Counted from the first letter of the stretch, positions 1-43,027 are shown. The stretch is DNA of 43,137 nt from a bacterium (GCA_013360215.1 JABWCP010000027.1:1-43137); one strand, 5' to 3'. The notes: generated by a model from the sequence alone, not told the origin. A program made the numbers and translations.

Positions 1-3000
1 TCGTATCGTATCCGCTCCGCTATGGGACTCCGCATACGTCACCGCATCACGCAGTGAACCGGCACCGGCATCGTTGGTATTGATGACTAATAGCGGATCA
101 ACCGCAATGGCTAACACGGGCGCCGAAAAAGCCGATGAATGAAAGAAACTGTCCTGTATGGCGGTATAATACATACCCGGTATGGGCGGTACTTTTATAG
201 ACCAATTACCCGACGCATCGGCATAAACTGAGTCGAGATAAATACGGCCTTGATCTGCCGAATCAGCATAAATTTGAATAAGAGCGTTTTTACCTGAATA
301 ACCGCTGACTGTAGAATCAAAATCAACGGACGTGATGACAGGCGCCCATACATTCTGATGTGCACCCGCAACGAGTGAAATACCACCGCCGCCATTGGAA
401 TAAATCTCGTTGGCGAAGAAGTGATCGCTATCCACCTGAAATCCGGTTTGATCGGCGGTAATTCCAAAATTCGTATTATAGGCTATCCGATTTCGGGTTA
501 TTTCGTTGTTGTGCGCAAAGGTCGAAATACCTGCAATAAAGACTCCGTTGCCCGCATTACCCAGCGCAGTGACGCTGTCAATGGCAACGCCAATCAGGTT
601 ATGCAAGACGACATTGTACGCAGATATGCCGGTATTGCCAATAATCGCAATACCGTTACCGCTATTTCCGGAAATTACATTTCCGGAACCAATTTCTCCA
701 ACTTGATTCGCTGAACCGCCGTCAATTTGAATCCCGTCGTTGCCGTTGGGTATAGCCGTGCTACCGGAAAGATCCGTGCCGATCAAATTTCCAATAATCA
801 AATTGCTGTCGGTTCCAACATCCTGAATACGAATTCCCTGATTGAAATTTCCTGACACGATATTTCCGCCGGAACCGGTGTTATTCCCAATAAGAGCGTA
901 TTGAGTCCCGTTTTCAATAACGATACCGATATTATTGGGAAGGGCCACAGCTCCGGTGCGGTCCACACCCACAAAATTCTGAAACACCATCGTTGAGTCC
1001 GCATCGTTTAGAATGATTCCATTGCCGCTATTACCGGCAATCACGTTGGCGGCCGCCCCGGCATTGAGTCCTATCTGATTGTTCACACTGCCGTATACAC
1101 CGATACCGTTACCGGTTCCGAGGCTGATGGTTCCGGTCGAATCGGTGCCTACATAATTACCCGCTACAAGATTGTAATTTGAATTATTCTGAATATAGAT
1201 TTGCACAGGGAAGTCTGCACCCGAACCGTTATTTCCAAAAACATTACGCCCCGCGTCCGTTCCGTCTCCTACGACGTTATAGGAGCTGTTATCCAGTGTA
1301 ACACCAGAACCTGCTCCTCCTCCTGACCAATTGGGCATGGCGGCTAAACCGGTAATATCTGTTCCCACAAAATTTCCCAAAATCGAGGTACCGGAAGAAT
1401 TTTCAACCATGATGCCAGCGCCGTTAAGTACGTTGGAAGAATTATTTGAAATAATATTTCTACCGGCCGGAGTTCCGTCGCCGATCATATTGCCCACGGC
1501 ATTGAGAATATGAATTCCATAATCCTGATTGCCCATCGCAAGCGTCCCACTGGAGTCAGTGCCGATAAGATTTCTGGCCACAATATTGCTATCAGATTGT
1601 ATCAGAACCCCACTGTTCATATTGCCAGAAATGACGTTATATTCAGAAGACAGCGGATCCCCGATTCGGTTGTATTTGGCGCCACTACTGATGACAACCC
1701 CGTGACTGTTTGCACTAGTTGTAACTCCATCGAGCGTACCAATCCAATTGCCAGCAACGACATTTGAGTCTGTTCCCGTATGTTCAATGACTATACCCGG
1801 AGCCTGCCCACTGCCACTGTTACTTGCAATAATAATATTGCGCCCGCTTATCGTACCATCCCCAATTTTGTTTCCCTTCGCACCGTTGATGAGGTGCACC
1901 CCAATATTATTAGCGTAAAGGTAATTGCCTATGATCAGATTATATCTGCCACTATCAATATCGATACCGCTTGCGCCGGTCAAGAATTCAAGAATACCAA
2001 GGTGTTTGATCGTGTTGTAGGATGAAGCTATATAAAGACCAAAGTCAAGAGTGGACCCACCGCTGATGAAAATATCATCGGCTATACCATTTCCGTTGAT
2101 GTCGCCATCGATCACAGTGCCGTTATCCGTCAAATGAGGAAGTTCCGATGCCACATAAATAGTCTGCCCGGAAACTGAAGCGTCAAACCGTATCGTATCC
2201 AGCCCTGCATTGGAATTCGCGAAATTAATAGCATTTCGCAGTGTGCCAAACGAGCCGTCATCCAACACGGAAGTAATCAGCAAAGGATCGCTGAATGTCA
2301 AACTATCCGGTATGCTGAAACCAGACGTCCGCCCGACGCTGCTCTGCAATGCCGTCAGGAATGGCGCCTCACCGCCAAGCAGGGTCACAGGTACGGCAAA
2401 ATTGCCCGCGCCATCAGCAACGCCGGTTCCGATGCGAAGCCGCCCTTGATTCGTGGAATCCACGTAGATTTGAACGAACGCGTTGGGGTCCGACGTTCCG
2501 TGAACCACGGAATCCATACTCATGAAAGAAATCATCGGAGGGGTTATACTGCCATTGGAGCCGGCAACGTAATTCATGCCGCCGAGGTTGTTGCTGTAGA
2601 TACGGTTTCCGTGGGCAATCATACTGTCCGCGCTCGCACTGCCGTCCATTTCGATTCCGTGGAAATTATTGAAGGCAATGGCATTGTCCAACAACAGATT
2701 CCGCCTGGCGCCGAGCAGCGAATAGATCCGAACGCCCATCTGGTTATTGCCAACGGGGGTAACGCCATCAGCACCCACGCCGATATTATTATTAATGATC
2801 GTGTTTTCGTCCGCAAGGCCGCCATTCGAGAATATGAAGATTCCATGATTTGCGTTCCCGGAAATCGTGTTGCCGTTACCGATCGTATTAACGCTTGCAT
2901 TCTGCAATTGGATACCCATCCCAACGTTTGCGAGAGGCGCGTTACCTGAGATGTCCACGCCAATGAAGTTGTCTTCAATCACGTTGGAATCTGACCATAT

Positions 3001-3925
3001 TTCGATGCCGTTGCCTGTATTGCCGGAGATAATGTTTCCGAGACCGGGCTTGCCGATAAAATTCGCGTTAGAACCCGCATCAAAGTAAATTCCGCGTTCG
3101 TTGGGAATCGCCGCTGTGCCGCTGAAATCGGTACCGATCTTATTATCGAAAATTTCTACTTCTTTTGCATAATAGGAAAAACCGGTGTAGCCAAAATTGA
3201 TGGCCAGGGCGCCCGCGCCGCTCCATCCGGAAATAATATTACTATGAATCTTCAGACCACGTCCGTTTTGAATGTAGATACCCGAAAGATGACTTGGGGC
3301 ATAGGTTAGGGGCGCCGATCCAGCCGCATTCGTTCCGATCTTGTTGTCGACAATCTTGGTCGAATCAAGATCATTGGAACTGCCGTAAAAAAATATTCCA
3401 TAACCCCGCGCTGAAATGACGTTGCCTCGTATTTCGTGTTGCCCGCCGCCAGCTGGCGCCAGGATGTCGATGTTGTTCACGTTGCTGTAGAGTGCCGTTC
3501 CGTCGGTACCGATATAATTATAGAGTATTTTCGCCCGGCGTGCCGCATTCGAAATCGTCAGTGCCGCTTCGGAACCCTGCACAAACCGAATGATCGTCAA
3601 ACCCTTGATGGTAATATCGTTTGCGGCAACGCGCACGAATGCTTCGTTGATACCGTTGTTGATCCCGTCGATTACAACGTCGGGAATGTTGTCGGTATTA
3701 TAGTCTCCATTGATAAATAGAGAATCATCGGTAATGTCGGGTAACTGAGAGGCGAGTAAGACGGAATCGACTGATACATTGAAAATGATCGTATCAGGAC
3801 CGGCGTGAGAGTTGGCATAGTCGATTGCGTCGCGCAGTGATCCGCTACCGCCATCCCCTTTTGATGTAACCAAAGTTGTTGTCGGCAAAATGACCGCGTT
3901 TTTGAGAACATAGATTACATTCGCA
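1..3925 (-). repeat. Parallel beta-helix modules at the C-terminal side of the giant protein
   Basis: Three module openings read GSLRDAI, GTLRNAI and GSLRDAV (near 3830, 2240 and 55), each followed by a DTI(R/I)F strand. The first two are followed by long runs of NosD-like turns such as N-x-I-G-x-x-x-x-G and VISGNSGNGI. They end in similar Ig-like domains with an A-x-(V/I)-QIY-(V/A)-DS core. The third opening is cut by the window edge. The fold is inferred from the glycine/asparagine turn periodicity typical of right-handed beta-helices. Confidence 0.8.
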
Positions 3926-6900
3926 GTATTGTCGGCGGCGGCAATTTCCATGGTCGCTGTGCCTGAAAAATTTCCTGATGAAAGGATAACACCGCCGTTG
4001 CCCGTGCCGTAGGAAGAACCTGCTACGAAGTTACCGGCGCCATCATTGACGATCGTCTGGACATTCGTGGATCCGTAGTTCACGGCAGCCACGTCCATGT
4101 CGCCATCTCCTTCAAAATCACCCAAAGTTATGGATTGCGGTAATGAACCGACGCCAATTTCGTTGCCGGAGAATCCACCGACGCCGTCATTCAATCTGAT
4201 CCCTACGTTACCGCTGTTCTCATTACAAAAAGCAATATCCATAAGCCCGTCGCCGTTGAAATCGGCCGCACGGATGGCTCTCGGCTGGATCCCGTTGGTC
4301 GTAAAATCTCCGCCGCCGCTGAAGATGCCTGTCCCGTCATTGTAACGTATCGAAAATGTTCCACTGCTGTAGTTCGAAGCGGCGAGATCAAGATCACCGT
4401 CATTGTCAAAATCGGCAACTGTGATGAAGTACGGATTATTCTGAAGATTGATCACACCGCCAAGGCTGAAAACCGTTCCCGTTCCATCGTTAAACCGAAC
4501 TCTCAATTCAGTTCCGCTTTCCGTGGATATGATGTCAACGTCACCGTCACCGTCAAAATCGCCGGCCGCAACGGTCAACTGAGCTACACCCGTGCTGATA
4601 TTGGCAAGCACACCAAAATTGCCGCTTCCGTCGTTGGAGCGAAGGGATATGTCCGAACTGGAATTATTGGCAACCGCAATGTCAACGTCGCCATCGCCGT
4701 CAAAATCAGCAGACGCGATCTCATAAGGTAGACTGCCCACCGCTACGTTTGACAAAACGGTGAAGCCGCCGGAGCCGTCATTAATGGCAATGGAAACATC
4801 GTTCGTCGATTGATTGACAACCGCCATATCCAGACTTCCGTCGTTATTGAAGTCGGCAGCCGCAATGGCTTTTGGAAAAGTTCCCACGACAACGGTATCG
4901 CCCGCGGAAAAGAAACCCGTCGCAAGATTCGTCTGAACATAGAACTGCCATGAATATGGTTTAAGCGTATCGCTGCTTATGGCTAATATACCCCGGGTCA
5001 AAGTGACGGTAACAAGTTCACCGGGAATAAAATCCGTATTGGGGTCAATATTTGCCGTTTGCGCACCGTATCCGTATGTAAAAGTATGATCACCGCTTTG
5101 CGCACCACGAATGAGAATATTTCTCGAATTCAGACTATCCGTTAGAATATCCGATGTGAAATTTACAATAATATTGCTGTTTGCTGGAATAGAAAGCCCA
5201 TTGGCCGATGGTGTGGTCGAGACGATTGACAGCGGAGGCGCCATCGCGCCGGATAAGACATATGTCGGGCCATTGAACAGCGTGAGATTTCGACTATTTG
5301 GTGTTGCGTCGAATGTTGTTGAACCGGCTCCTTCATCAAAATGCCAGTTCGCCAAAAGACCAGCTTCGTCCCCGCGTGATGGGCTAGCCTGAACCGATGC
5401 CATTTCCGCATCCGTCAACCCGCGGTTCCAGATCCGCATTTCATCGATCTGACCTTCAAAATGCAGGCTATTGTATGGATTCACACCGACACCGATGGAG
5501 CCGGATGTAATATTCTGGACATTTCCACTGACTACAGAATCTACAACAACACCATTCTTATAGGCGTAAAGCTGACCATTGCGAAGAACGACCGCCACAT
5601 GCGTCCAGACGTCATTCGTATATGGAATTCCTACAAATATTTGGCTCCCGTCCCATAGATAGGCCCAAATACGGTCCTGGCCGGTATAATCACCGCGCGT
5701 TAATCCGAGATAACCTCCGGCATCAAGGATAATCCCTTGGCCTTCATAGATCGTGGAAATCGACGGAGACGTACCGTTTGGCTTAACCCAGCCGCTGATC
5801 GTGACCGATGACGGGTCAACGCCCAAGTTCTGGTATGACGTAAAGATCGCCGCCTCATCATCAATGCCCTCAAGACTCAGCGCCTGACCGGCACCCGCTA
5901 CCGGAACCGCCGCGTCTTCATTGGAGTAGCCGCTTTCATCGGTAGCATTGATTGCTTTGATACGGAAATAATATAACGTTCCGTTAACAAGTCCCGTAAT
6001 CGTCTTGTTTGTTCCAACTGAAGAATCCGTCTGTACCATAGGATTGGGATTGACGTCATGATAAATGCGGTATAATGTTGCGCCAGGTGCAGCGCTCCAG
6101 TTCAATTCGACCTGCCCATTTTGAGCTACCGCATATAAACCGCTTGGTGACGGTAGAATCGCATCATTGAATGCAATCGAGACATCATTGGAACCCGCAT
6201 TTGGCGTAATCAGATCGATAGAACCGTCGCCGTCAAGATCCGCTGCGGCAATATCATAAGGCTGTGATCCGACAGAGATCGCTGTGCTTCCTGAAAAATT
6301 GGCCGCGCCGTCGTTATAACGTACAGAAACCGTATTGGCATTCCAATCTGCCGTCGCAAAATCCACATCGCCATCGCCGTCAAGATCACTGGCAACCAGT
6401 GAGTAAGGAAACAGGCCGACCGTCGGTGTTTGACCGCCGAAAAAGTTTCCTGACCCGTCATTCAACACTACCGATGCGTCATTGGACCCGACGTTTGCCG
6501 TCAGAATATCGATATCTCCATCGCCATCCAAATCTGCCGCCTGAATGCCCTGCGGATTGGTTCCAACAGCCGGATCGGATGCAATCGGGAAATTACCCGC
6601 GCCGTCATTCAGACGAACCGATATGCTGTTTGCCCCCACATTGGCCGTCGCAAAATCCATATCGCCGTCGCTGTCAAAATCGCCCGTCGTAATATCATAC
6701 GGCGTTGTTTGGACAGAAACCGTAGCGCCGCCGGTAAAATTTGCCGCGCCGTCGTTGATCAAAACGCTCACATTATTTGAATTCGCGTTCGCCACAACCA
6801 GATCAAGGTCCCCGTCGCCGTCAATATCAGCGGATTGAACAGCATACGGACCGGAGCCTACTGCAACACTTGGTCCTGAAAAATTACCGGCTCCGTCGTT

Positions 6901-9900
6901 AAGCAGTGTCGTAACAGTATTACCGCCGGCGTCGGCGGTAACAATATCCATATCGCCGTCATTGTCGAGATCGGCCACATGAGGACCGTACGGATTGGTT
7001 CCAACCGGAACCGTATAACTTGATAAAATTCCGCCGATGCCGTCGTTAAGAATGATCGTGACTTCACTCGGTGAAACATTAGTGGCCACGATATCGATCG
7101 TACCATCCAGGTTAAAATCTGCCGTCGCAACGCCGCCAGGGTTTGTCCCGGCGGCAAGATTTGATGCCGGTAAAGAATAGGACGCCGCGGCAAAGGACGG
7201 CGCGGCCGTAAATTGAAATTGAATATTCCTCAAAATATTTCCGCTGACGGCGACATTTGAAGCGCCAGACATGATCACAGTAACCACTTCACCCGGTTTA
7301 AAATTGGCCGTCGGATCAATCGTCAAAGTATACAAGACATTATCATAAAACAGCGATGTATTCATATAGCCGCTCAGCGAACCAAAAACTTTGGCGTCGA
7401 ATGAACTCATATCTTCAGGATATTCCACCACAATGTTGGCCGTAGGATTGATTCCAACGGTGTTTGGGATCGGAATGACAGAAGTAGGAACGATATAATT
7501 GTTATTTTTTAAGACTGTCGTATTTCCGCTGACCGAACCGTCGACGCGGATTATATCGATGTCGCCGTCATTGTCTACGTCTCCTCCATCGATTGACCAT
7601 GCAGGCCCTGGCCCGACGAACGCGTTATAAGAACCCGAAAAGTTGGCGGACCCGTCATTAATGCGAATCGAAACTGTAGTTGCCCCGCCTGTATTTCCGG
7701 CCGCGATGTCCACATCGCCGTCGCCGTCAAGATCACCGAGAAATACTGAGCGTGGAGAAACCAGACCGCTAATGTCGGAACCACCGGAAAAAACACCTGT
7801 GCCGTCGTTGAGGCGGACGGATATATCGCTTCCGCCCTCGTTGGCCGTGACCAGATCTAGATCGGTATCGGCGTCCAGATCAGCCAGTCTGACCATGACC
7901 GGACCAAAACTTACAGAAGAAGTCCCTCCGGAAGAAAAACCCGCCGCGCCGTCGTTGAGCAAAATGGATACTGTGTTGTCGTTATAATTCGACGCAAGCA
8001 GGTCAATGTCCCCATCGCTGTCAACATCTCCTCCCGTTACGCCGACCGCAAGATTTCCCACCGCCACATCGGTAGTTCCGGAAAAATTACCTGCGCCGTC
8101 GTTGAGACGGATCGACACGTTATTCGATCCGCTGTTGGCCGTGACAAAATCAACATCGCCGTCGCCGTCAAAGTCCGCTGCAAAAACAGATTGGCCGTTT
8201 CCTCCGATCGCAAAATTATTTGGGCCTGAAAAACTACCTAAACCATTATTGATATAGGACGCTACAAAACCGGAGGAAGCTATTAATAGGTCCAAATCAC
8301 CGTCATTGTCAATATCGGCGGCTGTCACGGCTCTTGAATTTGTTCCGGATGAAAGATCAGTACTGCCGGAAAAATTGCCTGTTCCATCATTGAACCGAAT
8401 CGAGACAGTTCCATCGACATCATTGGCCGCAGCCATATCAAGATCACCGTCCCCGTCCAGATCGGCCAGACTGACTCCGAACGGAGTGGAGCCGACCGTT
8501 GCTCCGGGCAGCGTGGTGAAAGTTCCCGTCGCAGGGAAAGCACCAACGGTAAATTGCCAGGAATAGGGGTTGAGCGTATCCGTGTTGGTAGCGATGATAC
8601 CGTCGGTGAGTGTGACCGTTACTACTTCACCAAATTTGAAATCGGTATCGGGATCGATGGATAAGCTGGCTTCGTAAAAGTAATTAGCCGTATGTAACCC
8701 GCTGTGGGAACCGCGGATCTTGATCGTGGCATTATTTAAAGTGGCCACATTGATATCTTGAGGAAAATTGACGAAGATATTCGATGAAATGCCTACATTA
8801 CCCTGATTTTGCAGCGGAGTTACGGATGTAACATTGAAATAACCGGGAGCATTTATTAGGATCGAAACATCATTTGAAACGCTGTTCGCGGTTGCAAGAT
8901 CCATATCCCCATCCCCGTCAAAGTCCGCCGCATAGACGGAAAGGGGACTCCACCCCACCGCGACATCGGTAGTTCCTGAGAAATTGCCTGCGCCGTCATT
9001 GAGGCGTATCGAAACATAATCACTCAAATCTGCCGTCGCGATGTCCATATCCCCATCCCCGTCAAAATCCGCCGCATAGACTGAAGATGGACCACTCCCA
9101 ACATATACAGTGGTACTTCCGGAAAAATTACCGGCGCCGTCATTCAGGCGTATCGAAACACTATTTGAACCACTATTGGCCGCAGCGATGTCCATGTCCC
9201 CGTCGCCGTCAAAATCTGCGGCATACACTGATTGTGGATTTGTTTCCACCACGATATCGGTCGTCCCTGAAAAGTTCCCTGACCCGTCATTTAGGCGTAT
9301 CGAAACATCATTTGAGCTGAAGTTAGCCGTCGCGATATCTATGTCTCCGTCGCCGTCAAGATCTGCCGCATAAACTGAATACGGTACCGACCCAGACGGA
9401 ACATCAGTGGTCCCCGAAAAATTACCCGCACCATCATTCATTCGAATGGATACCGTACTCGAACCTGTGTTTGCCACCGCTATGTCCATGTCGCCGTCGC
9501 CATCAAAATCCGCCACATAGACGGATTGTGGTCCTGTGCCAACCCCGACATTCGTGCTTCCGGAAAAATTTCCAGCGCCGTCATTCAGGCGTATCGAAAC
9601 ACTATTTGAACTTGGATTTGCTGTCGCGACGTCCACGTCCCCATCGCCGTCAAAATCTGCGGCATACACTGAAAATGCGCCTGACGCAACCGCGACATCG
9701 GTGCTTCCCGAAAAATTACCTGCTCCGTCATTCAGGCGTATCGAAACATTACTTGAACCCCCGTTTGCCGTCGCGATATCCATATCCCCATCCCCGTCAA
9801 AGTCCGCCGCATAGACGGATCGTGGATTGGTCCCTACCCCGAAGTTGCTAGCTACCTGCGGGAATGTTGCCGGCGCAATATCAGATGCAACTGTGAATTG

Positions 9901-11682
9901 CGTGACGTACGTTTTCAGAGTATCCGTATCCGTGGCCCTGATACCGCTTGTCAGAATAACCGAAACGGCTTCACCGGGTTTGAAATCAACATCCGGATTG
10001 ATCGTCACCGTTAAGCCGCTGGGTGTGTATGAAGCAGAATGAAGTCCGCTCTGTGAACCGTATACTTTCATATTCGAAGCTGTCAATGTACCAACATTGA
10101 CGACTTGTGAGAAAGTCACTGTGATGCCGCTGTTTGAACTGATGTTTCGTGCGTTCTGTCCCGGCACCGTGGAGGCCACCGTGAAATACGGATTGTTGAC
10201 GCCAAGATCGCCCTGCGAAGTCATCAATTGGGCATAAACGTCATAATTTCCGCTCCTCTGATCCGACCAAATAACGATCGCATTCCCGGAGCCGTCGTGT
10301 ACCATCGTATGCCAGAATTGATAACCGTTTGCAGAACAAACAACATTGCCGTTTGGCGACCAAAGAATATTTCCGGATCCGTCTATACGCTGGGCAAAAA
10401 TGTCTGCGTCGATGGCGGGGGTCGCATACCATGAAACAAATATCCCGCCTGCGCCGTCGGATGTGATAACGGCTTCATCGGGAGAACCGTTCGTGCTGGC
10501 GGCCACACCATTGGCCGGCCACAGAGCGACGCCGGAAGAGTTAAGTCTTTGCGCATAGATCCCCGCGCCGGCGCTTCGGGTGTCATACCATCCTATAAAT
10601 ACTCCGCCTGATCCGTCCGCTACAAGACTTGGGATCTGTTGAAATCCGTCCGCAACAGCAACGGCAACGCCGTTTACGCCCCACTGCAGAGCGCCTGCGC
10701 TGCTTACACGCTGGGCAAAGAGATCGAAATCTCCATTACGCGTATCCCGCCATGCGATAAAGGCTCCACCTGATCCGTCGGCGACAATTGAAGGGTAGTC
10801 TTGATAACTTGCAAAGGTACTGATAGCTTCACCGTCAACCGTCCATTGCGTGACACCGACATTGTTGATCCTTTGTGCATAGATCCGATTATCCGTGCCG
10901 TTTCGAAAATCATGCCATGTGATGATCGCGCCGCCCGAGCCGTCGTCGGTTATCCCGCCAATGGTTTGGTTGTCAGTTGCGACGCAAATGGAAACGCCAT
11001 CGACCGTCCATTGAGGAACCCCAGTCGCGTTGACCTTTTGTACATATATATCTGTTGCACCGCCCCTATTGTCGTTCCATGCAATTACGGCTCCGCCCGA
11101 GCCGTCGGCGGCAATTCGTGCATCCGTTTGATTGCCGCTCGCGCCGGTTATCTGCACTCCGTTCGCCGTCCAAAGTACAGTTCCGCTTGCATCGATCCGT
11201 TGCGCATATATGTCGTAATTAGCACCGCCGTTCCGGTTATCCGTCCACGTTATAATGGCACCGCCGTTGTTATCGGTTACGATCTTCGGACTTGACTGCC
11301 CGCTGGTCGCATTACTGATGACCACGCCGTCAACTGTCCAGAGAGGCGCGCCGGTTGCGTTCAATCGTTGGGCGTAGATATCGGGATTGGCGCCGCCGCG
11401 GTAATCTTCCCATACAATGAAAACCCCGCCGCTGCCGTCTGGAATAGCCTGAGGGTATCTTTGATCCCCAAATGTCGTAGATACGGGATTACTAACTGTT
11501 GGATTCGTTGACCATTGGGCCGACACACTTCCGATGCCGGTAAGACCCATGACCGCTGCGGCCATGGTTATTTTGACTAACACGCGTGCAAGTTTCATCC
11601 TCGAAACGTGGAAACGGAATAGATTTGGAATATCATGGCGAATTGATAAAACCAATTCATAAAGTCGTGGCAATCCGTTCAT
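1..11682 (-). CDS. Giant secreted multi-propeller / beta-helix surface protein (C-terminus outside window)
   Basis: A single frame stays open from the ATG at 11682 to the left edge: 3894 codons with no stop, so the gene is partial at its C-terminus. The start is supported by GGAG seven bases upstream. An internal ATG at 11598 would give an ordinary signal peptide (MKLARV... ending SVSA|Q) but has no properly spaced SD. Reading N to C: leader (~56 aa); eight ~54-residue repeats with a W-x-D-x-R core and an IYAQR(L/I) strand; then four blocks of [bacterial Ig-like domain + seven FG-GAP/VCBS repeats with DxDGDxD calcium-type loops]; an FN3 and a LamG-like jelly roll lie between the third and fourth blocks; finally at least three modules opening with SLRDAI/LRNAI followed by NosD-like parallel beta-helix repeats. 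The protein is presumably exported and displayed or released, acting as an adhesin or carbohydrate/protein-binding scaffold. No catalytic motif was seen. The function is inferred from domains only. Confidence 0.9.
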   Translation of the reverse strand, partial: MNGLPRLYELVLSIRHDIPNLFRFHVSRMKLARVLVKITMAAAVMGLTGIGSVSAQWSTNPTVSNPVSTTFGDQRYPQAIPDGSGGVFIVWEDYRGGANPDIYAQRLNATGAPLWTVDGVVISNATSGQSSPKIVTDNNGGAIITWTDNRNGGANYDIYAQRIDASGTVLWTANGVQITGASGNQTDARIAADGSGGAVIAWNDNRGGATDIYVQKVNATGVPQWTVDGVSICVATDNQTIGGITDDGSGGAIITWHDFRNGTDNRIYAQRINNVGVTQWTVDGEAISTFASYQDYPSIVADGSGGAFIAWRDTRNGDFDLFAQRVSSAGALQWGVNGVAVAVADGFQQIPSLVADGSGGVFIGWYDTRSAGAGIYAQRLNSSGVALWPANGVAASTNGSPDEAVITSDGAGGIFVSWYATPAIDADIFAQRIDGSGNILWSPNGNVVCSANGYQFWHTMVHDGSGNAIVIWSDQRSGNYDVYAQLMTSQGDLGVNNPYFTVASTVPGQNARNISSNSGITVTFSQVVNVGTLTASNMKVYGSQSGLHSASYTPSGLTVTINPDVDFKPGEAVSVILTSGIRATDTDTLKTYVTQFTVASDIAPATFPQVASNFGVGTNPRSVYAADFDGDGDMDIATANGGSSNVSIRLNDGAGNFSGSTDVAVASGAFSVYAADFDGDGDVDVATANPSSNSVSIRLNDGAGNFSGSTNVGVGTGPQSVYVADFDGDGDMDIAVANTGSSTVSIRMNDGAGNFSGTTDVPSGSVPYSVYAADLDGDGDIDIATANFSSNDVSIRLNDGSGNFSGTTDIVVETNPQSVYAADFDGDGDMDIAAANSGSNSVSIRLNDGAGNFSGSTTVYVGSGPSSVYAADFDGDGDMDIATADLSDYVSIRLNDGAGNFSGTTDVAVGWSPLSVYAADFDGDGDMDLATANSVSNDVSILINAPGYFNVTSVTPLQNQGNVGISSNIFVNFPQDINVATLNNATIKIRGSHSGLHTANYFYEASLSIDPDTDFKFGEVVTVTLTDGIIATNTDTLNPYSWQFTVGAFPATGTFTTLPGATVGSTPFGVSLADLDGDGDLDMAAANDVDGTVSIRFNDGTGNFSGSTDLSSGTNSRAVTAADIDNDGDLDLLIASSGFVASYINNGLGSFSGPNNFAIGGNGQSVFAADFDGDGDVDFVTANSGSNNVSIRLNDGAGNFSGTTDVAVGNLAVGVTGGDVDSDGDIDLLASNYNDNTVSILLNDGAAGFSSGGTSSVSFGPVMVRLADLDADTDLDLVTANEGGSDISVRLNDGTGVFSGGSDISGLVSPRSVFLGDLDGDGDVDIAAGNTGGATTVSIRINDGSANFSGSYNAFVGPGPAWSIDGGDVDNDGDIDIIRVDGSVSGNTTVLKNNNYIVPTSVIPIPNTVGINPTANIVVEYPEDMSSFDAKVFGSLSGYMNTSLFYDNVLYTLTIDPTANFKPGEVVTVIMSGASNVAVSGNILRNIQFQFTAAPSFAAASYSLPASNLAAGTNPGGVATADFNLDGTIDIVATNVSPSEVTIILNDGIGGILSSYTVPVGTNPYGPHVADLDNDGDMDIVTADAGGNTVTTLLNDGAGNFSGPSVAVGSGPYAVQSADIDGDGDLDLVVANANSNNVSVLINDGAANFTGGATVSVQTTPYDITTGDFDSDGDMDFATANVGANSISVRLNDGAGNFPIASDPAVGTNPQGIQAADLDGDGDIDILTANVGSNDASVVLNDGSGNFFGGQTPTVGLFPYSLVASDLDGDGDVDFATADWNANTVSVRYNDGAANFSGSTAISVGSQPYDIAAADLDGDGSIDLITPNAGSNDVSIAFNDAILPSPSGLYAVAQNGQVELNWSAAPGATLYRIYHDVNPNPMVQTDSSVGTNKTITGLVNGTLYYFRIKAINATDESGYSNEDAAVPVAGAGQALSLEGIDDEAAIFTSYQNLGVDPSSVTISGWVKPNGTSPSISTIYEGQGIILDAGGYLGLTRGDYTGQDRIWAYLWDGSQIFVGIPYTNDVWTHVAVVLRNGQLYAYKNGVVVDSVVSGNVQNITSGSIGVGVNPYNSLHFEGQIDEMRIWNRGLTDAEMASVQASPSRGDEAGLLANWHFDEGAGSTTFDATPNSRNLTLFNGPTYVLSGAMAPPLSIVSTTPSANGLSIPANSNIIVNFTSDILTDSLNSRNILIRGAQSGDHTFTYGYGAQTANIDPNTDFIPGELVTVTLTRGILAISSDTLKPYSWQFYVQTNLATGFFSAGDTVVVGTFPKAIAAADFNNDGSLDMAVVNQSTNDVSIAINDGSGGFTVLSNVAVGSLPYEIASADFDGDGDVDIAVANNSSSDISLRSNDGSGNFGVLANISTGVAQLTVAAGDFDGDGDVDIISTESGTELRVRFNDGTGTVFSLGGVINLQNNPYFITVADFDNDGDLDLAASNYSSGTFSIRYNDGTGIFSGGGDFTTNGIQPRAIRAADFNGDGLMDIAFCNENSGNVGIRLNDGVGGFSGNEIGVGSLPQSITLGDFEGDGDMDVAAVNYGSTNVQTIVNDGAGNFVAGSSYGTGNGGVILSSGNFSGTATMEIAAADNTANVIYVLKNAVILPTTTLVTSKGDGGSGSLRDAIDYANSHAGPDTIIFNVSVDSVLLASQLPDITDDSLFINGDYNTDNIPDVVIDGINNGINEAFVRVAANDITIKGLTIIRFVQGSEAALTISNAARRAKILYNYIGTDGTALYSNVNNIDILAPAGGGQHEIRGNVISARGYGIFFYGSSNDLDSTKIVDNKIGTNAAGSAPLTYAPSHLSGIYIQNGRGLKIHSNIISGWSGAGALAINFGYTGFSYYAKEVEIFDNKIGTDFSGTAAIPNERGIYFDAGSNANFIGKPGLGNIISGNTGNGIEIWSDSNVIEDNFIGVDISGNAPLANVGMGIQLQNASVNTIGNGNTISGNANHGIFIFSNGGLADENTIINNNIGVGADGVTPVGNNQMGVRIYSLLGARRNLLLDNAIAFNNFHGIEMDGSASADSMIAHGNRIYSNNLGGMNYVAGSNGSITPPMISFMSMDSVVHGTSDPNAFVQIYVDSTNQGRLRIGTGVADGAGNFAVPVTLLGGEAPFLTALQSSVGRTSGFSIPDSLTFSDPLLITSVLDDGSFGTLRNAINFANSNAGLDTIRFDASVSGQTIYVASELPHLTDNGTVIDGDINGNGIADDIFISGGSTLDFGLYIASSYNTIKHLGILEFLTGASGIDIDSGRYNLIIGNYLYANNIGVHLINGAKGNKIGDGTISGRNIIIASNSGSGQAPGIVIEHTGTDSNVVAGNWIGTLDGVTTSANSHGVVISSGAKYNRIGDPLSSEYNVISGNMNSGVLIQSDSNIVARNLIGTDSSGTLAMGNQDYGIHILNAVGNMIGDGTPAGRNIISNNSSNVLNGAGIMVENSSGTSILGNFVGTDITGLAAMPNWSGGGAGSGVTLDNSSYNVVGDGTDAGRNVFGNNGSGADFPVQIYIQNNSNYNLVAGNYVGTDSTGTISLGTGNGIGVYGSVNNQIGLNAGAAANVIAGNSGNGIILNDADSTMVFQNFVGVDRTGAVALPNNIGIVIENGTQYALIGNNTGSGGNIVSGNFNQGIRIQDVGTDSNLIIGNLIGTDLSGSTAIPNGNDGIQIDGGSANQVGEIGSGNVISGNSGNGIAIIGNTGISAYNVVLHNLIGVAIDSVTALGNAGNGVFIAGISTFAHNNEITRNRIAYNTNFGITADQTGFQVDSDHFFANEIYSNGGGGISLVAGAHQNVWAPVITSVDFDSTVSGYSGKNALIQIYADSADQGRIYLDSVYADASGNWSIKVPPIPGMYYTAIQDSFFHSSAFSAPVLAIAVDPLLVINTNDAGAGSLRDAVTYAESHSGADTIR
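3930..4940 (-). repeat. Seven FG-GAP/VCBS blades, fourth propeller (last blade degenerate)
   Basis: Repeats have loops centred near 4840, 4695, 4545, 4400, 4255, 4110 and 3965. The seventh (GNFSGTATMEIAAAD) has lost the Asp-rich loop but keeps the length and the flanking strands. A bacterial Ig-like domain at about 4950-5260 precedes the block. It leads into the first beta-helix module. Confidence 0.8.
5380..6130 (-). other. FN3 domain followed by LamG-like jelly roll inside the giant protein
   Basis: About 6130-5900 encodes a fibronectin type III domain (the VELNWSAAPGATLYRIY strand and an LYYFRIKAIN strand). About 5890-5380 encodes a LamG/concanavalin-A-like domain with hallmark strands LSLEGIDDEAAIF, VTISGWVKP, WTHVAVVLRNGQLYAYKNG and FEGQIDEMRIWNRGL. 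LamG-like domains usually bind glycans or proteins. This pair separates the third and fourth propeller blocks. Confidence 0.75.
6140..7190 (-). repeat. Seven FG-GAP/VCBS blades, third propeller
   Basis: Seven repeats with loops centred near 7105, 6960, 6815, 6670, 6520, 6375 and 6228. The first blade has a degenerate loop (ADFNLDGTID). A bacterial Ig-like domain lies upstream at about 7200-7510. The block runs directly into the FN3 domain through the segment SPSGLYAVAQNGQVELNW. Confidence 0.85.
7530..8535 (-). repeat. Seven FG-GAP/VCBS blades, second propeller
   Basis: Seven repeats with calcium loops centred near 8450, 8300, 8165, 8010, 7870, 7715 and 7570. The sequences are more diverged from one another than in the first block (for example ADIDNDGDLD, GDVDSDGDID, ADLDADTDLD). 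A bacterial Ig-like domain (about 8540-8850) precedes them and shares the FKFGEVVTVTLT strand with the other Ig-like copies. Confidence 0.85.
8865..9875 (-). repeat. Seven FG-GAP/VCBS blades, first propeller
   Basis: Seven repeats of about 50 residues occur here. Each contains YAADFDGDGDMDIATAN-like calcium-loop residues followed by VSIRLNDGAGNFSG. Calcium-loop codons are centred near 9795, 9650, 9495, 9350, 9205, 9055 and 8905. A bacterial Ig-like domain (roughly 9880-10200) precedes the set. The blades are unusually similar at DNA level. Seven FG-GAP units form a closed propeller in integrin-alpha-type folds, so the set looks complete. Confidence 0.85.
10205..11515 (-). repeat. Eight W-x-D protein repeats at the N-terminus of the giant protein
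   Basis: Eight consecutive ~54-residue units share the pattern DGSGG-h-h-I-x-W-x-D-x-R-x-G-x-x-D-I-Y-A-Q-R, followed by a turn, L-W and a GV strand. The W-x-D cores read WEDYR, WTDNR, WNDNR, WHDFR, WRDTR, WYDTR, WYATP and WSDQR in order; the seventh has lost the D-x-R element. Eight such units would suit a closed eight-bladed beta-propeller, although that fold is inferred from repeat length and strand pattern, not from a recognised family name. Confidence 0.75.
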
Positions 11683-11774: not shown

Positions 11775-12527
11775 CTAAAAAATATGTACTCCTTTGATGC
11801 GGCGCACTGCGGCAATCCCAGTTCCGGTCGCATGGTAAAACAGAGGCTCCAAAAAATGAGAAGAATGAAATGTAAAAGCTTGGGAACAACACATATCATC
11901 AGGGACGGGATATTGGCAGGCCATGGAAACTTCATTCCAGTGCAATGGCTCTTGAATTTTCGTAATCACCTCGAATGAAGCGGACGAAGCTGGAACCGTG
12001 GATATGCCAAAACGACATGATGCTTCGATACACTGCGTATAAATAACCTGATCAAATGTATCGTGCCATTCATCCGTCCATGCGATAATCACACCGCCAA
12101 AAATTTCCTCGCCCATGGCCGGGAAGGTTTGCTGGCCCGCAACCGAAGTGATTGCATCACGATTGCTCATCACCAGAACTGATCCCGAGCCGTCACTCCG
12201 TCGGGCACATATGTGCTCCGGCAATGATCTCTCGTCATTGCAGACAATATTAGCGTTGCAATTTTCGCCGATGCTAATTCTATTGGTAAATCGGCCTTTC
12301 GATACCGTATAGATAGCCGCGTCATCGGTCGCACTTGATACAACACCTGACATGTTTATCAGTTGTGCAAAAATCGTATTGCTTCCGATCATGAGCATCG
12401 CAACTACAACACGGCCTATCTTACAAAAGACCTTTGCGGGTGATTGCCGATAAGGTAATTGGTTGTCAAAAAGAAATGCGTTTTGCGATGGGTTGGAAAG
12501 ACCGATCGAGCGTAAATACGAGATCAC
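11775..12527 (-). CDS. Small secreted protein, truncated-looking relative of the giant protein's N-terminus
   Basis: This is a 250-residue protein of unrecognised family. A GTG start at 12527 is chosen because GGAG lies six bases upstream; an ATG at 12539 has no SD. A long N-terminal leader (~55 aa) ends with a hydrophobic segment and the probable cleavage site TIFA|Q. The mature part contains two units resembling the W-x-D repeats of the neighbouring giant protein: ICARRSDGSG, and GGVIIAWTDEWHDTFDQ followed by VIYTQCIEAS. The C-terminal ~80 residues are cysteine- and histidine-containing and match nothing I recognise. It sits upstream of the giant gene on the same strand with a 92-bp gap. 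It is probably a decayed or trimmed paralogue rather than part of a propeller, because two repeats cannot close one. Confidence 0.6.
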   Translation of the reverse strand: MISYLRSIGLSNPSQNAFLFDNQLPYRQSPAKVFCKIGRVVVAMLMIGSNTIFAQLINMSGVVSSATDDAAIYTVSKGRFTNRISIGENCNANIVCNDERSLPEHICARRSDGSGSVLVMSNRDAITSVAGQQTFPAMGEEIFGGVIIAWTDEWHDTFDQVIYTQCIEASCRFGISTVPASSASFEVITKIQEPLHWNEVSMACQYPVPDDMCCSQAFTFHSSHFLEPLFYHATGTGIAAVRRIKGVHIF

Positions 12528-12592
12528 GGATATCTCCATAGATGTGGATATTATATAACCGTTTCTCTAATCGCGCAGACTATAAAAACGCA

Positions 12593-14101: not shown

Positions 14102-17100
14102 TTATTTAACCAAAAGCATTTTTCGGGTGAATGATTTACGCAAACCGGTTGTTGTTTCCAGTTCCACGCGATAAAGATAAACACCGGATGAAACCAAAGC
14201 GCCACGTTCGTCACGCCCGTCCCATGCCGCCGTACGCAAACCGGTCTCTTGGCGGTCACCGTTTACCAATGTCCGCACTTTTTGCCCAAGCATATTATAA
14301 ACCGTCAGTGTTACTTTGGCCTGCGAAGCCAGTGCATAACGTATCGTCGTCCCCGGATTGAAAGGGTTGGGGTAGTTTTGCTGCAATTCAAACGCTTTAG
14401 GAAGTTGTTCCAATTCCGTTTGTTTACCTGCAAGATACTCCGGAGTTCCCGCCAAAATACGCATCAGCCATTTTGTGCCCGACGGCGGTAAGGACATTGC
14501 CGTTTCATGATCAATAAATGAATTCGTACTGACATTGAATAAACGCACGGACCAACCCGGTTCATTATTGACAATCTGCATCGTTAGTTCACCCGACTCC
14601 AAACCGGACTCCAATACAAAGTCCGAGGTAATACCCTGCTTATCAAAACGTATCGTTTTGCGATTGAGACCATGATCGCCCGACGGGAAATACACGCCGA
14701 TGGTTTGCCCTGGGTTCTTAGGCTCCGGTTGTGCAAACGCTTCCGCATCATCGCGATCTAATACAGCCAGCGTAGTATAAAGATCACCGTAGCGAATTTG
14801 TTTTTTCAAACCTTCGGCGCTGAGCATGATACGAAATTTTTCACCTTCTAATTGGTTCGATGATTTAGGCATCCAAACAAAATTATCCGGTGTTACGCGA
14901 ATCGTACGCGCCGCATTACCTTTTACATAAATCGCATACCCGCCAAAAGGCTGCAGCGTGGTGACTTCAGTGCTCCATGCTTCGGTCGCGCCGACGCCAT
15001 ATTCGATCGGCCCGTAAAACGCCGTATCTTCAAGTGCGGCAAAATTAATCGTGAACGGGTATGGGTTTCCTATCAGATTCCATCCCGGGGCCAGTGACAT
15101 ATCAAATCCCGTCGTCAGATTGGTTTTACCCGCTGCCGTATTAATCGGCATATCTACCGGCGACTTGTGATAAAACCACATCCCTGCACCATTGGCCAGG
15201 GCTGTGATTTCTGCAGGTTGCGCGTTGTACGCGATATAGTCACCCGAATACACACCGCTTAAAATCGAACTCAAATTTTTGCTATCCAGATCTGCCGGTA
15301 CAGACACCAAACGCCAACGATTAGATGGAATGCCCGTAGGATATTTAGATCCTGCGAGGGATGAGGCCACAGTCGTAAATGTTACCGGTACGCTACTTGT
15401 ATCACTGATGGCTGTATTAACTCTGCTATCCCGCGCACGAATATACAAAGCAATACCTTCCGTCGTGATATTCGAATCATGCACGGTAGCGGTAAATGTA
15501 TTATTCGTACCGGCTGTCATGGTCAGTGAATCATAAGCCGATGTGCCTTTTTGGAAAAATAGTTTTACCCCCGATAGACTGCCATTATCCGTAACCGTCG
15601 CTGTCACCGTTAGCGATGCACCCGATGCAACGGATGCCGGAAGGGTAACATTGCTAATCGTCGGTGCGGTCACATCCAAAATATAAGTCACGTTGAATGT
15701 ATCCGTTACCGTCGAATACCCGTCAAATGCGCTTGCAACGACGGCCGCTGTACCGCTGAACCCGGCCACACTGGCAATGTAAAGTGTATCGTGAGAAATC
15801 GTTGCGGTAAGCTCCGCAGGCGTCGTGGAGACCGAATACGTCAACGTCGTATTATCCGCGTCGGAAAAAACATGCGTCAATTTCCGGCGAAACGTCTTTC
15901 CGAACCCTTCAAAAAGCGAGGTATCGGGAATGGCATTCGCCACGATCGGCGCTACGCTATGCGTTGTATCACTTGCAGTCGACGATTGCGCGCTAAAACC
16001 AAAATTACCTACAGACGAGATTTTATAAAAATAAACGGTATTGGACGAAAGACTGGTATTACTGTAAGTCAGTGTGGGCGCCGCAACGGAATCTACCTGC
16101 ACATAACCGGAAGCCGCTGTCGTCGAACGATACACGCGGTAACGTGTGATGACACCCGAAGGTTTATTCCAAGCTACATCAATGCGGTTGGTCGTCACAC
16201 CGGAGGCCGTAACCCCTGTCGGTGTGGATGGCGCAGTACCGGTCACGGTTAGTGTTATTACTTTTCGGCGCAGTGTAGTCCCTATCGCAACCGTATTGGT
16301 CACATCGCACGTATAGTTTCCCGCGTCACTGGTTTTCACGGAATCAATGTACAACGTGTCATTATTGGTTGAAGGTATAGCGACATTGTTTTTCTTCCAT
16401 GAATATTGATTATTGGCGCCACCTGCAGTGACTACTAAAATACGCGAAGACGCCTCCGCTGAGCTGACCGATGCATAACTATCCAAACTGTCCTGGCCGG
16501 AGTATGTAAATGTGGCGATACCGACATTGGGTTGAATGTCTTCAAAAGTAAATTTATTACCCGAAAGATTGAGCGAAGTCAATGTGCCGATATTTGAAAG
16601 ATCAGGAAATACGCTCAGACGATTGTTCTGTACTTCCAGATTTTGCAGGGCGGCAAGATTTCTAAAGGTTACGGGTATAGAATCCGTAAACGCATTGTTA
16701 TTCAGTGTCAGATCCGTCATGGCGTTAAGATTGCCCAGTGAAGGCGGGATTTGGCCCGAAAGCTGATTATTCTCAAGACCAAGATTGGCCAAATTGGTCA
16801 GATTCCCCAAACTGGAAGGAATAGTATTCGTAATGGCATTGCCATACAACTGAAGTGAAATGAGGCTTCCCAAAGTACCGAGTGTAACCGGAATACGTCC
16901 GGTCAGATTATTGTTATTCAGATCAATCGCCGTTACACGATTGCCACCGACGGTTACGCCAAACCAAGAGCTCACCGGTCCGGTTTTCCAATTGGTTTTG
17001 GTCGTCCAGTTAGTGCCGCCGGTACTGTCATAGAGATTGACCAGCGCCACGGAGTCGGCTGTGAGCACCTGCGCCGATAGCGGTCGCAAACCCCACCCGA

Positions 17101-17137
17101 AGATAAATGTAAAAACAACGACGAAACATGATTTCAT
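14102..17137 (-). CDS. LRR / Ig / FN3 surface protein with FlgD-like C-terminal sorting tail
   Basis: 1011 residues. The start at 17137 is chosen because GAGG lies five bases upstream and it begins a clean signal peptide (MKSCFVVVFTFIFG... LSA|Q); a further upstream ATG has no support. Domains in order: a plant-type LRR block (~20-200: LYDSTGGTNWTTKTNW, then units like LTGRIPVTLGTLGSL), an Ig domain (~215-300, with SDAGNYTC), FN3 (~305-395), a cadherin-like domain and an Ig-like domain (~400-590), a GWNLIGNPYPF-containing region, and a C-terminal tail (~925-1011) with QNYPNPFNPGTTIRY, ending in KMLLVK. Such tails are associated with type IX secretion or surface anchoring in FCB bacteria. It is probably a secreted adhesin or binding protein. 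No secretion-system gene lies in this window. Confidence 0.9.
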   Translation of the reverse strand: MKSCFVVVFTFIFGWGLRPLSAQVLTADSVALVNLYDSTGGTNWTTKTNWKTGPVSSWFGVTVGGNRVTAIDLNNNNLTGRIPVTLGTLGSLISLQLYGNAITNTIPSSLGNLTNLANLGLENNQLSGQIPPSLGNLNAMTDLTLNNNAFTDSIPVTFRNLAALQNLEVQNNRLSVFPDLSNIGTLTSLNLSGNKFTFEDIQPNVGIATFTYSGQDSLDSYASVSSAEASSRILVVTAGGANNQYSWKKNNVAIPSTNNDTLYIDSVKTSDAGNYTCDVTNTVAIGTTLRRKVITLTVTGTAPSTPTGVTASGVTTNRIDVAWNKPSGVITRYRVYRSTTAASGYVQVDSVAAPTLTYSNTSLSSNTVYFYKISSVGNFGFSAQSSTASDTTHSVAPIVANAIPDTSLFEGFGKTFRRKLTHVFSDADNTTLTYSVSTTPAELTATISHDTLYIASVAGFSGTAAVVASAFDGYSTVTDTFNVTYILDVTAPTISNVTLPASVASGASLTVTATVTDNGSLSGVKLFFQKGTSAYDSLTMTAGTNNTFTATVHDSNITTEGIALYIRARDSRVNTAISDTSSVPVTFTTVASSLAGSKYPTGIPSNRWRLVSVPADLDSKNLSSILSGVYSGDYIAYNAQPAEITALANGAGMWFYHKSPVDMPINTAAGKTNLTTGFDMSLAPGWNLIGNPYPFTINFAALEDTAFYGPIEYGVGATEAWSTEVTTLQPFGGYAIYVKGNAARTIRVTPDNFVWMPKSSNQLEGEKFRIMLSAEGLKKQIRYGDLYTTLAVLDRDDAEAFAQPEPKNPGQTIGVYFPSGDHGLNRKTIRFDKQGITSDFVLESGLESGELTMQIVNNEPGWSVRLFNVSTNSFIDHETAMSLPPSGTKWLMRILAGTPEYLAGKQTELEQLPKAFELQQNYPNPFNPGTTIRYALASQAKVTLTVYNMLGQKVRTLVNGDRQETGLRTAAWDGRDERGALVSSGVYLYRVELETTTGLRKSFTRKMLLVK

Positions 17138-17215
17138 AAAAGCCTCAGTGCATGTTCGCAAACAAATATTAATTCGATGTAAATTATCAGATTTGATTGA
17201 CGGCAAGATCATTAA

Positions 17216-17706: not shown

Positions 17707-17964
17707 TTATCCTCCGCTGACCGGCGGTATAATACACACTTCATCACCGTTTTGAAATTGGACAGCGCCGGCGACGTATTCCATATTTACAGCCAGGCGG
17801 CTTTGGTTTTGATATGCCTTCAAGCGCGGAAATTTTTCGGCGATAACTTGCCAAAAAGTTTCTGCATCCGCTGAAGCCGGCAATACAATTACCGCCTCCT
17901 CGCATCCGGCCGCTTCACGGCACATCGCAAAAAATTTAACGCGTACATTGATCATGTTCATCAT
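17707..17964 (-). CDS. moaD: Molybdopterin synthase sulfur carrier subunit MoaD
   Basis: 85 residues, ubiquitin-like fold. The protein ends with VSGG, the C-terminal Gly-Gly that is adenylated and thiocarboxylated, and it contains the FFAMCREAAG and NGDEVCIIPP segments characteristic of MoaD. The first ATG overlaps the TGA of the upstream alpha-2-macroglobulin gene as ATGA, implying translational coupling. A start three codons later (17955, MINVRVKFF) fits family N-termini and SD spacing slightly better. Partner of the adjacent MoaE. Confidence 0.93.
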   Translation of the reverse strand: MMNMINVRVKFFAMCREAAGCEEAVIVLPASADAETFWQVIAEKFPRLKAYQNQSRLAVNMEYVAGAVQFQNGDEVCIIPPVSGG

Positions 17965-20900
17965 TCCACTGAAATCTGAGTTGCCGTCGTCGTTCCGAAA
18001 ATCTCCGGATGATACATCGCTTCGGCTTTGGTAGCCGGCAGCGCAAACGTACCGTAGGTCGTCGCACGCACGTAATAGATAAACTTCTGTGTCCCGTTTT
18101 CAAAATAGTCAGCAAAAGCCACGACGCGATCATCGCGCATTTCCGAACGTGTAAATCCACCGTACTCCCACCAACGATTTTCGGTCCCACCGCCGTACGA
18201 AGATGCCGAAGTTGCCAAATCCGTGTTGATCGCTTCAAATCCCGCCGGCAACGGATCATCCAACACCACATATTGGCGTGCTTGCGCCGTACTGACCGTC
18301 AATGTGATTTTATAAATTTTACCGGCTTTATAACGTCCGTCCGTGACGACGTGACCCGAAGCGTCTTGTATCTCTTTGCTCACCCGCAATCCCTCATCGC
18401 GTGCCGGAGCATTACCGCCTGAACGCGGCGCATAGGTCATACGCGCATTGTAATATAAACGCCCCGCGCCTGTTTTGGATATATCAAGCGGCAATGCTTT
18501 ACCGCTCGGAAATTCGGCTAAAGCCGTAAGGGATGTGTGACTCTGTGTCGTCCGGCCCTGATACATTTGGGAGAGCAATTGACGCCCTGCCAAACGCACC
18601 GTTGCTTTGAAATCCGGATCCACGTCTTCAAAATTTCTGAAATACGTGCCCAGCGCGTAAAACACATACAAGTTTTCCTGCGTCGTACGCCAGCGTCCTT
18701 GTTTACGTTCTTCAAGCATATATTTCACTACTTTTTCAGCCCAAGGTACGTTGGTGCCGTCTAGTTCGATAAACGTTTGCAATATCGCCGCGGTGGTGCG
18801 CATCGGCGAATGGAATGACCATTCCGAACCGGGCAAATTCGGCTCTTCAAAATGCGCCGTCGTGGGATTCATTTTAATCGCATTCATCAGATCACGACGT
18901 AATGTTTCGGTCATGGCTTTATGACCGCCGCCTTTGACAATCGCTTGCAAAAGCATTGCGCGTGCAAACAAAGGTAATTCGGAACGGCGCTGGAATAACA
19001 GTTCGGCGCTGGCCGCATCATACACATCGTGATCGGCCAATATAGCCAATGCAAACGCATTGGTATTGTGCCAATAAAAAACACCATAGCGGTCTACCGG
19101 ATTATTACGAACAAGCTTTTTCAAATATTCTACGCCGTTGTCCATGATTTCTTTGGGTACATCATAACCGATAGCTTTCGCCTTGGTCAAAGCAAACATC
19201 GCATACACACTGACGTAGGGTGATACCGTATTATCGCCGGTCCAATACGAAAAACCACCGCTGTACTTTTGAAATTTGGGAATCTCATTCAGGTATTCTT
19301 TAACCGCCGCATCGACCGATTTTGTTTTGTCTTCAAACGGAGTGAGACCAAATGCTGTCACTACGTCACCAAAAAGAATGACCGGTAAAACACGGGAGGT
19401 GCGCTGTTCGAGACAACCGTACGGATATTCGAAAAGATATTTTACACTACCGTCAAGGTCAACCAATGCCGTAGACGATGTTTTGATTTCAAAACTTCCC
19501 GTGTTTTCAAAAATCGAACCGGGAATGATCACTTGTTCCTGCGTTTTATCCGTCGTACTGCCGGCAAGCGCCACGGTTTCCGTTGGTACGGGCATACGCA
19601 CCGGTATTGTTATTTCTACGCCATCGCTAAACGACTGCATCTGTGCGGTAAAACTAAACTTCGCCGGCCCGGTCTTAAGCGCACGATATGTAAAACGCAC
19701 TTCTTGGGATGCACCGGGTTGCAACTCCACCGATTTTTCGTTTGGTCCGATAATTTCGACACCTTCCACCTGTGCGCGTATCGTCGCTGTCCCCGCTTGC
19801 GTGGTGTTATTGTGTAGCACTGCGCCGGCTTCCATGGCGTCGTCTATGCGGGCAAAACGCGGTAGTGCAGGCCGAAGCATGAGATCTTTGCTGACCGTAA
19901 TGGAATGATCGTCACTGCCAAAACGAGAATCGCGGGTATGGGCCACCGCAAATATGCGAAACATAGTGAGGTTGTCCGGCAGTTGTACACGGACACGCGC
20001 CTTACCGCGCGCATCGGTGATCACGGAAGGATTCCAGTACACACAGGATTTGAAATCTTTGCGCATGGCAATGCCCGGCATACTTCGCTCGTCACCACCG
20101 CCACCGCCGACACCACCCTTTTCTTTAAGATCGCGCTTTACCAGTTGATCCAAAATAAATCGCCGCGATTCGGTCGTAGCAACCTGCAACTCACGTTGTT
20201 TGTAAAAATGTGAAAACACATCCGGCGTTTGATATCCCACCAGATTGAGTACGCCGACATCTTCGACATAAAGCGTCACTTCCGCAATTTGACCATACCC
20301 TGACTTGTCCGCCACTTCGACGTCCACATCCATCCATTCACCGGGTTGAAATTTATTTTTCGGTGTTTGAATTTTCACGGCCAGTTTGTTAGCCGACGGA
20401 TCCACAGAAAGGTTGATATAGCCGATTTTAAAAGACGGCTTTCCTATGTCTTCATTTTGATCGGGCACAGGTTCAGCGGTTCGCCCTTGTAAAAGCATCA
20501 CCGACACAAACGCATTGGGCGCCATCTCGGCCGTAATCGGAATTTCGACCGAAGCGGCATTACCTTTGAGTTCCGTCATGAAATGACGAATAATACCTTC
20601 GCGTTCTACACTCACCAGAGCACGCGCGCGCTCATAAGGCGACTTGACGAGTATTTTGGCTTTTTCACCGACTTTATATTGGCTTTTATTCGCAACCAAA
20701 TCAATCCGGTCGCCATCATTGAGTTTCCATCCAGCATAGGATTCGCCGGTCACATAAACGTAGGATTCTGAAATAATCGTATTGTCGTATGGATCGCTCG
20801 AAGTCGCTCTCAAAATATAATAACCCGTCGAGGCTGGGTTCAATTTTTGCGTGACGATCTCCCCCCCGCGCGAGCGTACCGTAAAAACCCCTTCCGTTGT

Positions 20901-23600: not shown

Positions 23601-23610
23601 GACCATCTCC

Positions 23611-23898
23611 CTATTTCCCATTATTTGCTTTTACATTGGAACGATATTTTATTTTAAGCACAATCAACCAAAGATTCAATGCGATGGAAACGATATTAGC
23701 CATAATGATAACTAAGTCATCACGCATTACCCCATAGAGCAACCATCCGCTCATCCCGATCAATAAAACGACCGGCTGAGCAATAGCCACATCCTCAACT
23801 TTTTTGGTACGAAGGCTTTTTATCACTTGCGGTAGAAAACCAAACGTAGTTAGAATTCCAGAAACCAAACCTACGATCATTGTATCCATGAAGACCAT
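23611..23898 (-). CDS. SemiSWEET-type sugar transporter
   Basis: 95 residues with three predicted membrane helices and the PQ-loop signature GFLPQVIKSL in the first, followed by the short basic loop RTKKVEDVA. This is the architecture of bacterial SemiSWEETs (MtN3/PQ-loop family), which dimerise to form a sugar uniporter in the inner membrane. The substrate cannot be told. Starts at 23898 and 23889 (MDTMIVG) are both possible; neither has a good SD. It lies 10 bp upstream of the alpha-2-macroglobulin start and is divergent from the 161-aa gene. Confidence 0.85.
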   Translation of the reverse strand: MVFMDTMIVGLVSGILTTFGFLPQVIKSLRTKKVEDVAIAQPVVLLIGMSGWLLYGVMRDDLVIIMANIVSIALNLWLIVLKIKYRSNVKANNGK

Positions 23899-42911: not shown

Positions 42912-43027
42912 GTAAAATTAACAGAAACTAATTTTTATTCTAGTCGGTTAAAAATGATTCTACGGCTCAATAAGTCCTCGATTCAATATTATATTGTTAC
43001 AATTATAACATCAAGCCTGCGGAAACG

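Follow-up and report, generated by a model that had tools for sequence, protein, structure and literature searches.

Four groups of exactly seven VCBS blades in a giant, probably exported bacterial protein: modules gained and lost as units, with blades that appear to follow a history of their own

The stretch of DNA analysed here, referred to below as the window, comprises 43,137 nucleotides from a bacterium (GCA_013360215.1 JABWCP010000027.1:1-43137). Positions 1-11682 are occupied, on the minus strand, by a giant open reading frame of 3,894 amino acids that is still open at the contig start, i.e. the gene is cut by the contig end; its features are listed in Table 1. Window positions 1-99 recur without a difference at the start of contig C51 (G000:C51 1-99), where a second giant beta-helix gene also runs off the contig end, and the contig start is where the assembly broke, at a beta-helix repeat that the two contigs share. 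Exactly at the other end of the window (43027-43137) there is a 50-bp tandem repeat (2.2 copies, 98%). Among the neighbouring minus-strand genes are one for a 1036-aa protein with leucine-rich repeats, Ig and Fn3 domains and a C-terminal sorting-type domain, a candidate type IX cargo (14102-17212), and one for a bacterial alpha-2-macroglobulin whose N-terminal part bears two Big_5 Ig-like domains (17961-23621).

Table 1. Features of the giant open reading frame, with residues of the protein and positions in the window
Feature	Residues	Window position	Strand	Evidence
Probable Sec signal peptide; start at an internal ATG; glutamine at +1	29-55	11518..11598	-	Read from sequence; MKLAR...GSVSA/QW, kept in G003; fits the Q-rule (PMC5837995)
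N-terminal eight-bladed propeller, 8 repeats of ~54 aa	56-500	10183..11517	-	HMM units, AlphaFold, Foldseek, sub-cutoff TIGR04275
Ig-like domain 1, Big_5 type	503-603	9874..10176	-	Pfam and HMM
VCBS/FG-GAP propeller 1, 7 blades; closing strand ~607-616	607-949	8836..9864	-	Motif, HMM, turn statistics, model
Ig-like domain 2	952-1048	8539..8829	-	Pfam and HMM
VCBS/FG-GAP propeller 2, 7 blades	1053-1394	7501..8526	-	Motif, HMM, model
Ig-like domain 3, divergent	1400-1500	7183..7485	-	HMM built from the four Ig domains
VCBS/FG-GAP propeller 3, 7 blades	1503-1844	6151..7176	-	Motif, HMM
Fn3 domain	1848-1920	5923..6141	-	Domain search
LamG/concanavalin-like domain	1955-2093	5404..5820	-	Pfam Laminin_G_3 1.4e-18
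Ig-like domain 4	2150-2252	4927..5235	-	Pfam and HMM
VCBS/FG-GAP propeller 4, 7 blades, the last without calcium motif	2257-2601	3880..4914	-	Motif, HMM
Right-handed beta-helix repeats, running on past the contig end	2605-3894	1..3870	-	Weak Pfam Beta_helix and NosD

A first-pass annotation had described four groups of exactly seven FG-GAP/VCBS repeats, each behind a related bacterial Ig-like domain, and both observations hold. The blade groups (residues 619-949, 1067-1394, 1514-1844 and 2270-2601) contain 7, 7, 7 and 7 units, with blades of about 49 aa spaced 47-51 aa apart, and the Ig-like domain in front of each is related to the other three (31-54% pairwise identity). Pfam reports only three Big_5 stretches, the third Ig-like domain being divergent, and all four are recovered by an HMM made from them. 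The modules, originally placed at 3930-9875, span 3880-10176 once the Ig domains and closing strands are included. It had also been suggested that five propellers stand in tandem before the beta-helices; the number is right, yet the tandem is not strict, since the Fn3 and LamG domains part the last two propellers. The blades themselves are matched by Pfam FG-GAP_3 (PF13517) with 543.8 bits against a curated cut-off of 26.9 (25 stretches, down to 3e-167). A calcium loop of the DxDxDG type, sought with a relaxed regular expression and located between strands A and B in the structure model, is present in 27 of the 28 blades; the last blade (residues 2564-2601) is degenerate, has lost the motif and was found by the profile HMM alone (38.7 bits).

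We searched 80 related loci, drawn from many phyla, with an HMM for one blade derived from the window. In the window and these loci together, runs of 7 blades occurred 98 times, runs of 14 thirteen times and a run of 21 once, with other lengths rarer, some of the odd ones arising where a blade was missed or a contig ended. Once the set had been cleared of duplicates, of irregularly spaced runs and of those at ORF ends, 94 arrays in relatives were left, 75 with exactly seven blades and 79 with a multiple of seven. All of these loci are relatives, but short peptide patterns were used to retrieve them and the HMM covers no more than one blade, so the number seven was not imposed by the query, and the peaks at 7, 14 and 21 show that it is not due to chance.

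The blades also differ by position in a way that bears on ring closure. The NDGxGxF turn leading into strand D is present in 48-63% of blades at positions 1 to 6, as opposed to 2 of 101 seventh blades, and a counterpart of the missing strand D is found just before blade 1 (e.g. TFPQVASNFGVGTNP vs NFSGSTDVAVASGAF). An AlphaFold model of two modules (residues 500-1400, i.e. propellers 1 and 2, from 27 aligned rows; pLDDT 90.7, pTM 0.73), the kind of structure prediction that had been proposed as a check, has about 28 strands per group: one before blade 1, six successive A-B-C-D sets and a final A-B-C. With closure read from the strand order in this model, the strand before blade 1 is strongly predicted to complete the last blade of the same group, which is the velcro arrangement of a seven-bladed propeller. 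Array counts, the strand missing from blade 7 and the strand order of the model thus agree in supporting the earlier proposal that seven per group is a closure rule. The best Foldseek matches of the two-module model are multi-propeller proteins or complexes (e.g. DDB1, SF3B and the tandem WD propellers of Utp21); TM-scores on the propeller pair are only about 0.3 and, like the pTM of the model, probably reflect uncertain relative orientation of the domains.

The N-terminal eight-repeat block had been counted as a further propeller, and this reading is upheld: its eight units (residues 72-500) are modelled as a propeller with eight strand triplets and a short N-terminal closing strand (AlphaFold, pLDDT 88.6, pTM 0.89), the eight-bladed model matches propellers in the PDB by Foldseek, and eight HMM units are found here and in most full-length relatives. 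A sequence search of the block against the PDB gave no match, nor does it fall into any Pfam family; the NCBIfam model TIGR04275 (beta_prop_Msarc) matches weakly at 46.5 bits (E 2e-12), below its curated cut-off of 85 bits, and the block further differs from that family in its eight units of ~54 aa. Upstream of the giant gene, a 254-aa ORF (window 11775-12539, minus strand) shows faint traces of the eight-repeat unit (HMM 34.8 bits) and may be a degraded N-terminal block.

Proteins of this kind are already known, as multi-propeller VCBS proteins with Ig domains were described in 2021: core VCBS proteins have signal sequences, sometimes several propellers and mostly Ig-like partners (Pereira and Lupas 2021, PMC8023676). 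The window protein shares these traits and the DxDxDG motif in loop AB, and differs in having four propellers of exactly seven blades, an N-terminal propeller with eight blades whose repeats are of another type, and beta-helices. VCBS propellers are also known to amplify internal blades (Pereira and Lupas 2022, PMC9218822), and the blades of block 1 are highly similar, as in recently amplified propellers; that survey, however, found a continuum of blade numbers, whereas the family of the window protein stays at seven. Profile matches of the VCBS propellers include CRTAC1 (7.6e-19), integrin alpha-IIb (~5e-7) and the propeller of a Tc B subunit. Like the integrin-alpha and CRTAC1 propellers, they have seven blades and a calcium loop between strands A and B; unlike them, they belong to a bacterial protein with four propellers per chain and without integrin leg domains or a beta partner, so that this number and the Big_5/Fn3/LamG/beta-helix context set the protein apart from integrin alpha subunits. 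Locus L036, with ten modules (the last one cut), and L016, with eight, have more than the window protein. Our search of the literature on giant multi-propeller proteins in Ignavibacteria/Kapabacteria and on tandem FG-GAP adhesins returned nothing specific.

With respect to its history, the window protein was compared closely with that of a relative, G003. Over the eight-repeat block and Ig domain 1 (window 9874-11682) the two proteins are 89% identical, as opposed to only 71% for aspartyl-tRNA synthetase (aspS) of the same two genomes and 40-48% for the remainder of the gene past propeller 1, and same-genus relatives of G003 reach only 63-67% over this part. Because of this disparity, transfer or recombination may have affected the N-terminal part, which is unusually similar to that of G003. 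At fourfold-degenerate sites the eight-repeat block and Ig domain 1 have 0.60-0.69 identity. In propeller 1, blades 2-5 agree at 24 of 72 such sites, the out-of-register background, compared with 28 of 50 for blades 1, 6 and 7 (Fisher p = 0.016, for a split into edge and middle blades that was picked after viewing the identity profile), and a weak register is left at the protein level (p = 0.018). The interior blades of propeller 1 thus appear to have been turned over, while their number is still seven.

Between the eight-repeat block and the Fn3 domain there are no Ig-propeller modules in G005, where the block runs directly into Fn3-LamG, one in G003 and three in the window, whose fourth module is placed after LamG. 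The four Ig domains of the window and Ig domain 1 of G003 and G006 form one clade (support 100/98). The first-pass annotation had suggested duplication of whole modules, and as far as gain and loss of entire modules are concerned both observations bear this out; that blades are inherited together with their module is not borne out. Blade n of one block does not group with blade n of the others: in a permutation test over the six block pairs of the window, in-register identity at positions 2-6 is 0.462, vs 0.460 expected (p = 0.42), and the small excess over positions 1-7 (0.436 vs 0.428 under permutation, p = 0.076) weakens once blade 7, which is truncated, is left out. Permutation was used instead of a blade tree because 49 columns are too few, and a phylogeny of the 28 window blades and 7 blades of G003 had no starred (well-supported) branch.

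Two further candidate processes were tried and rejected. Concerted evolution of block 1 was dropped because the full-blade test at fourfold sites (0.432 within vs 0.402 between, p = 0.07) allows less within-protein homogenisation than a core-only comparison had suggested. Gene conversion from block 1 into blade B2_3, the two being 82% identical in amino acids, is unsupported at synonymous sites (fourfold identity 0.26).

In the relatives, an Ig domain and its propeller often have different histories, and nucleotide similarity typically stops near the border between them. Where the Ig domains of two modules share 70% identity or more, mean fourfold identity is 0.49 in the Ig domain, and in the propeller 0.35 with the blades in register and 0.33 with them shifted. 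Colinearity is seen between L038 and L020, whose Ig domains are 67-83% identical; three of their propellers lie at the background level of ~30-40% and a fourth at 64-89%. The reverse is seen for the propellers of L016 (3169) and L036 (3623), which are 79% identical in register vs 36% out of register, and whose upstream 113 aa are only 42% identical, the break falling inside the Ig domain; L013 (2622) and L019 (2535) resemble this pair, and there the similarity ends at the propeller end. An in-register excess above 0.15 was observed in 11 of 8,001 propeller pairs, and the 48,006 shifted comparisons yielded no such case; orthologous modules account for some of the 11, and the candidates for exchange are those with dissimilar upstream Ig domains. 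One reading of these mosaics is that the seven-bladed propellers are exchangeable cassettes held between conserved Ig frames, and that recombination in the Ig domains swaps them between slots and also between proteins, which would diversify the binding faces; we put this forward tentatively, as a possibility somewhat short of even. We found no description of such propeller exchange in the literature.

Several alternative explanations should be considered. Blades might have multiplied freely by slippage or unequal crossing-over, with the number seven due to chance or to the way the HMM segments the arrays. Such growth could draw on block 1, where the blades are 75% identical to one another and are flagged by Tandem Repeats Finder, but as the sole process it is refuted by the counts of internal arrays (see above) and by a last blade that lacks the strand supplied by the segment before blade 1, and we give it hardly any credence; blade-level turnover within a fixed seven may occur. 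A better case can be made for the model of the first-pass annotation, in which whole [Ig + propeller] modules are duplicated in place and then diverge by point mutation, as it accounts for the clean differences of 0, 1 or 3 modules and for the single Ig clade. Nevertheless, it is unlikely in this form: it does not fit blocks that fail to match blade by blade, nor a comparison with G003 in which Ig domain 1 keeps 0.69 identity at fourfold sites and the middle blades of propeller 1 only 0.33. "Module duplication rather than repeat growth" is therefore half the story, since blades or whole propellers also appear to have been rebuilt or exchanged. The mosaics in relatives may in turn reflect misassembly at Ig domains, as nearly all of the loci concerned are in metagenome-assembled genomes, although a nucleotide identity of ~80-85% is low for confusing an assembler.

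As to function, LamG and beta-helix domains occur in polysaccharide-degrading enzymes. One may thus consider such an enzyme, with VCBS propellers that only present the substrate and catalysis by the beta-helix or the eight-bladed propeller, whose Foldseek matches include polysaccharide lyases and sialidases. Those matches, however, have TM-scores of 0.3-0.55 and ~12% identity, as expected of the propeller fold in general, and no enzyme family is reached at the curated cut-off in Pfam or NCBIfam, so that we regard this as very unlikely. The picture that we consider quite probable is instead that of a giant exported protein, on the surface or extracellular, that works through five beta-propellers, each closed on its own: an eight-bladed one and four of the VCBS/FG-GAP type, which have seven blades and bind calcium. 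Residues 29-55 read as a signal peptide with cleavage before a glutamine (QWSTNP), in line with the Q-rule of Bacteroidetes, by which glutamine follows the cleavage site (PMC5837995). The genome of the window has SprA and 32 Por_Secre_tail matches, and the full-length protein of G003 (6,354 aa) has a C-terminal tail resembling a sorting domain; on these sequence features, Sec export followed by type IX delivery to the cell surface is likely. The GW motif that marks a sugar pocket (as defined in PMC8023676), in the loop joining strand D to strand A of the following blade, is nearly absent (one of 28 blades, B1_7), which separates these propellers from the PVL/tachylectin type. Sugar binding in the manner of PVL is thus unsupported, and proteins or other glycans are possible ligands. 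Our preferred reading would be a long cell-surface protein with multivalent binding.

Such a protein would present its propellers as separate binding faces on a long stalk spaced by Ig domains, with calcium stiffening the blades, and could act as a multivalent adhesin or as a scaffold that binds glycans or proteins. In the mechanism that we propose, Ig-propeller units would be gained and lost at domain junctions, blades or whole propellers would be turned over independently of the Ig spacers, and the requirement for ring closure would keep the number of blades at seven. For the VCBS repeat family, "exactly seven" becomes a counted rule, with arrays in relatives mostly ending at 7, 14 or 21, and at a single junction members of the window protein's family differ by entire propeller modules. 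Propeller swapping is directly testable in the colinear pair L038/L020, and, if true, it would amount to a cassette-style diversification of giant bacterial surface proteins in which the scaffold is kept.
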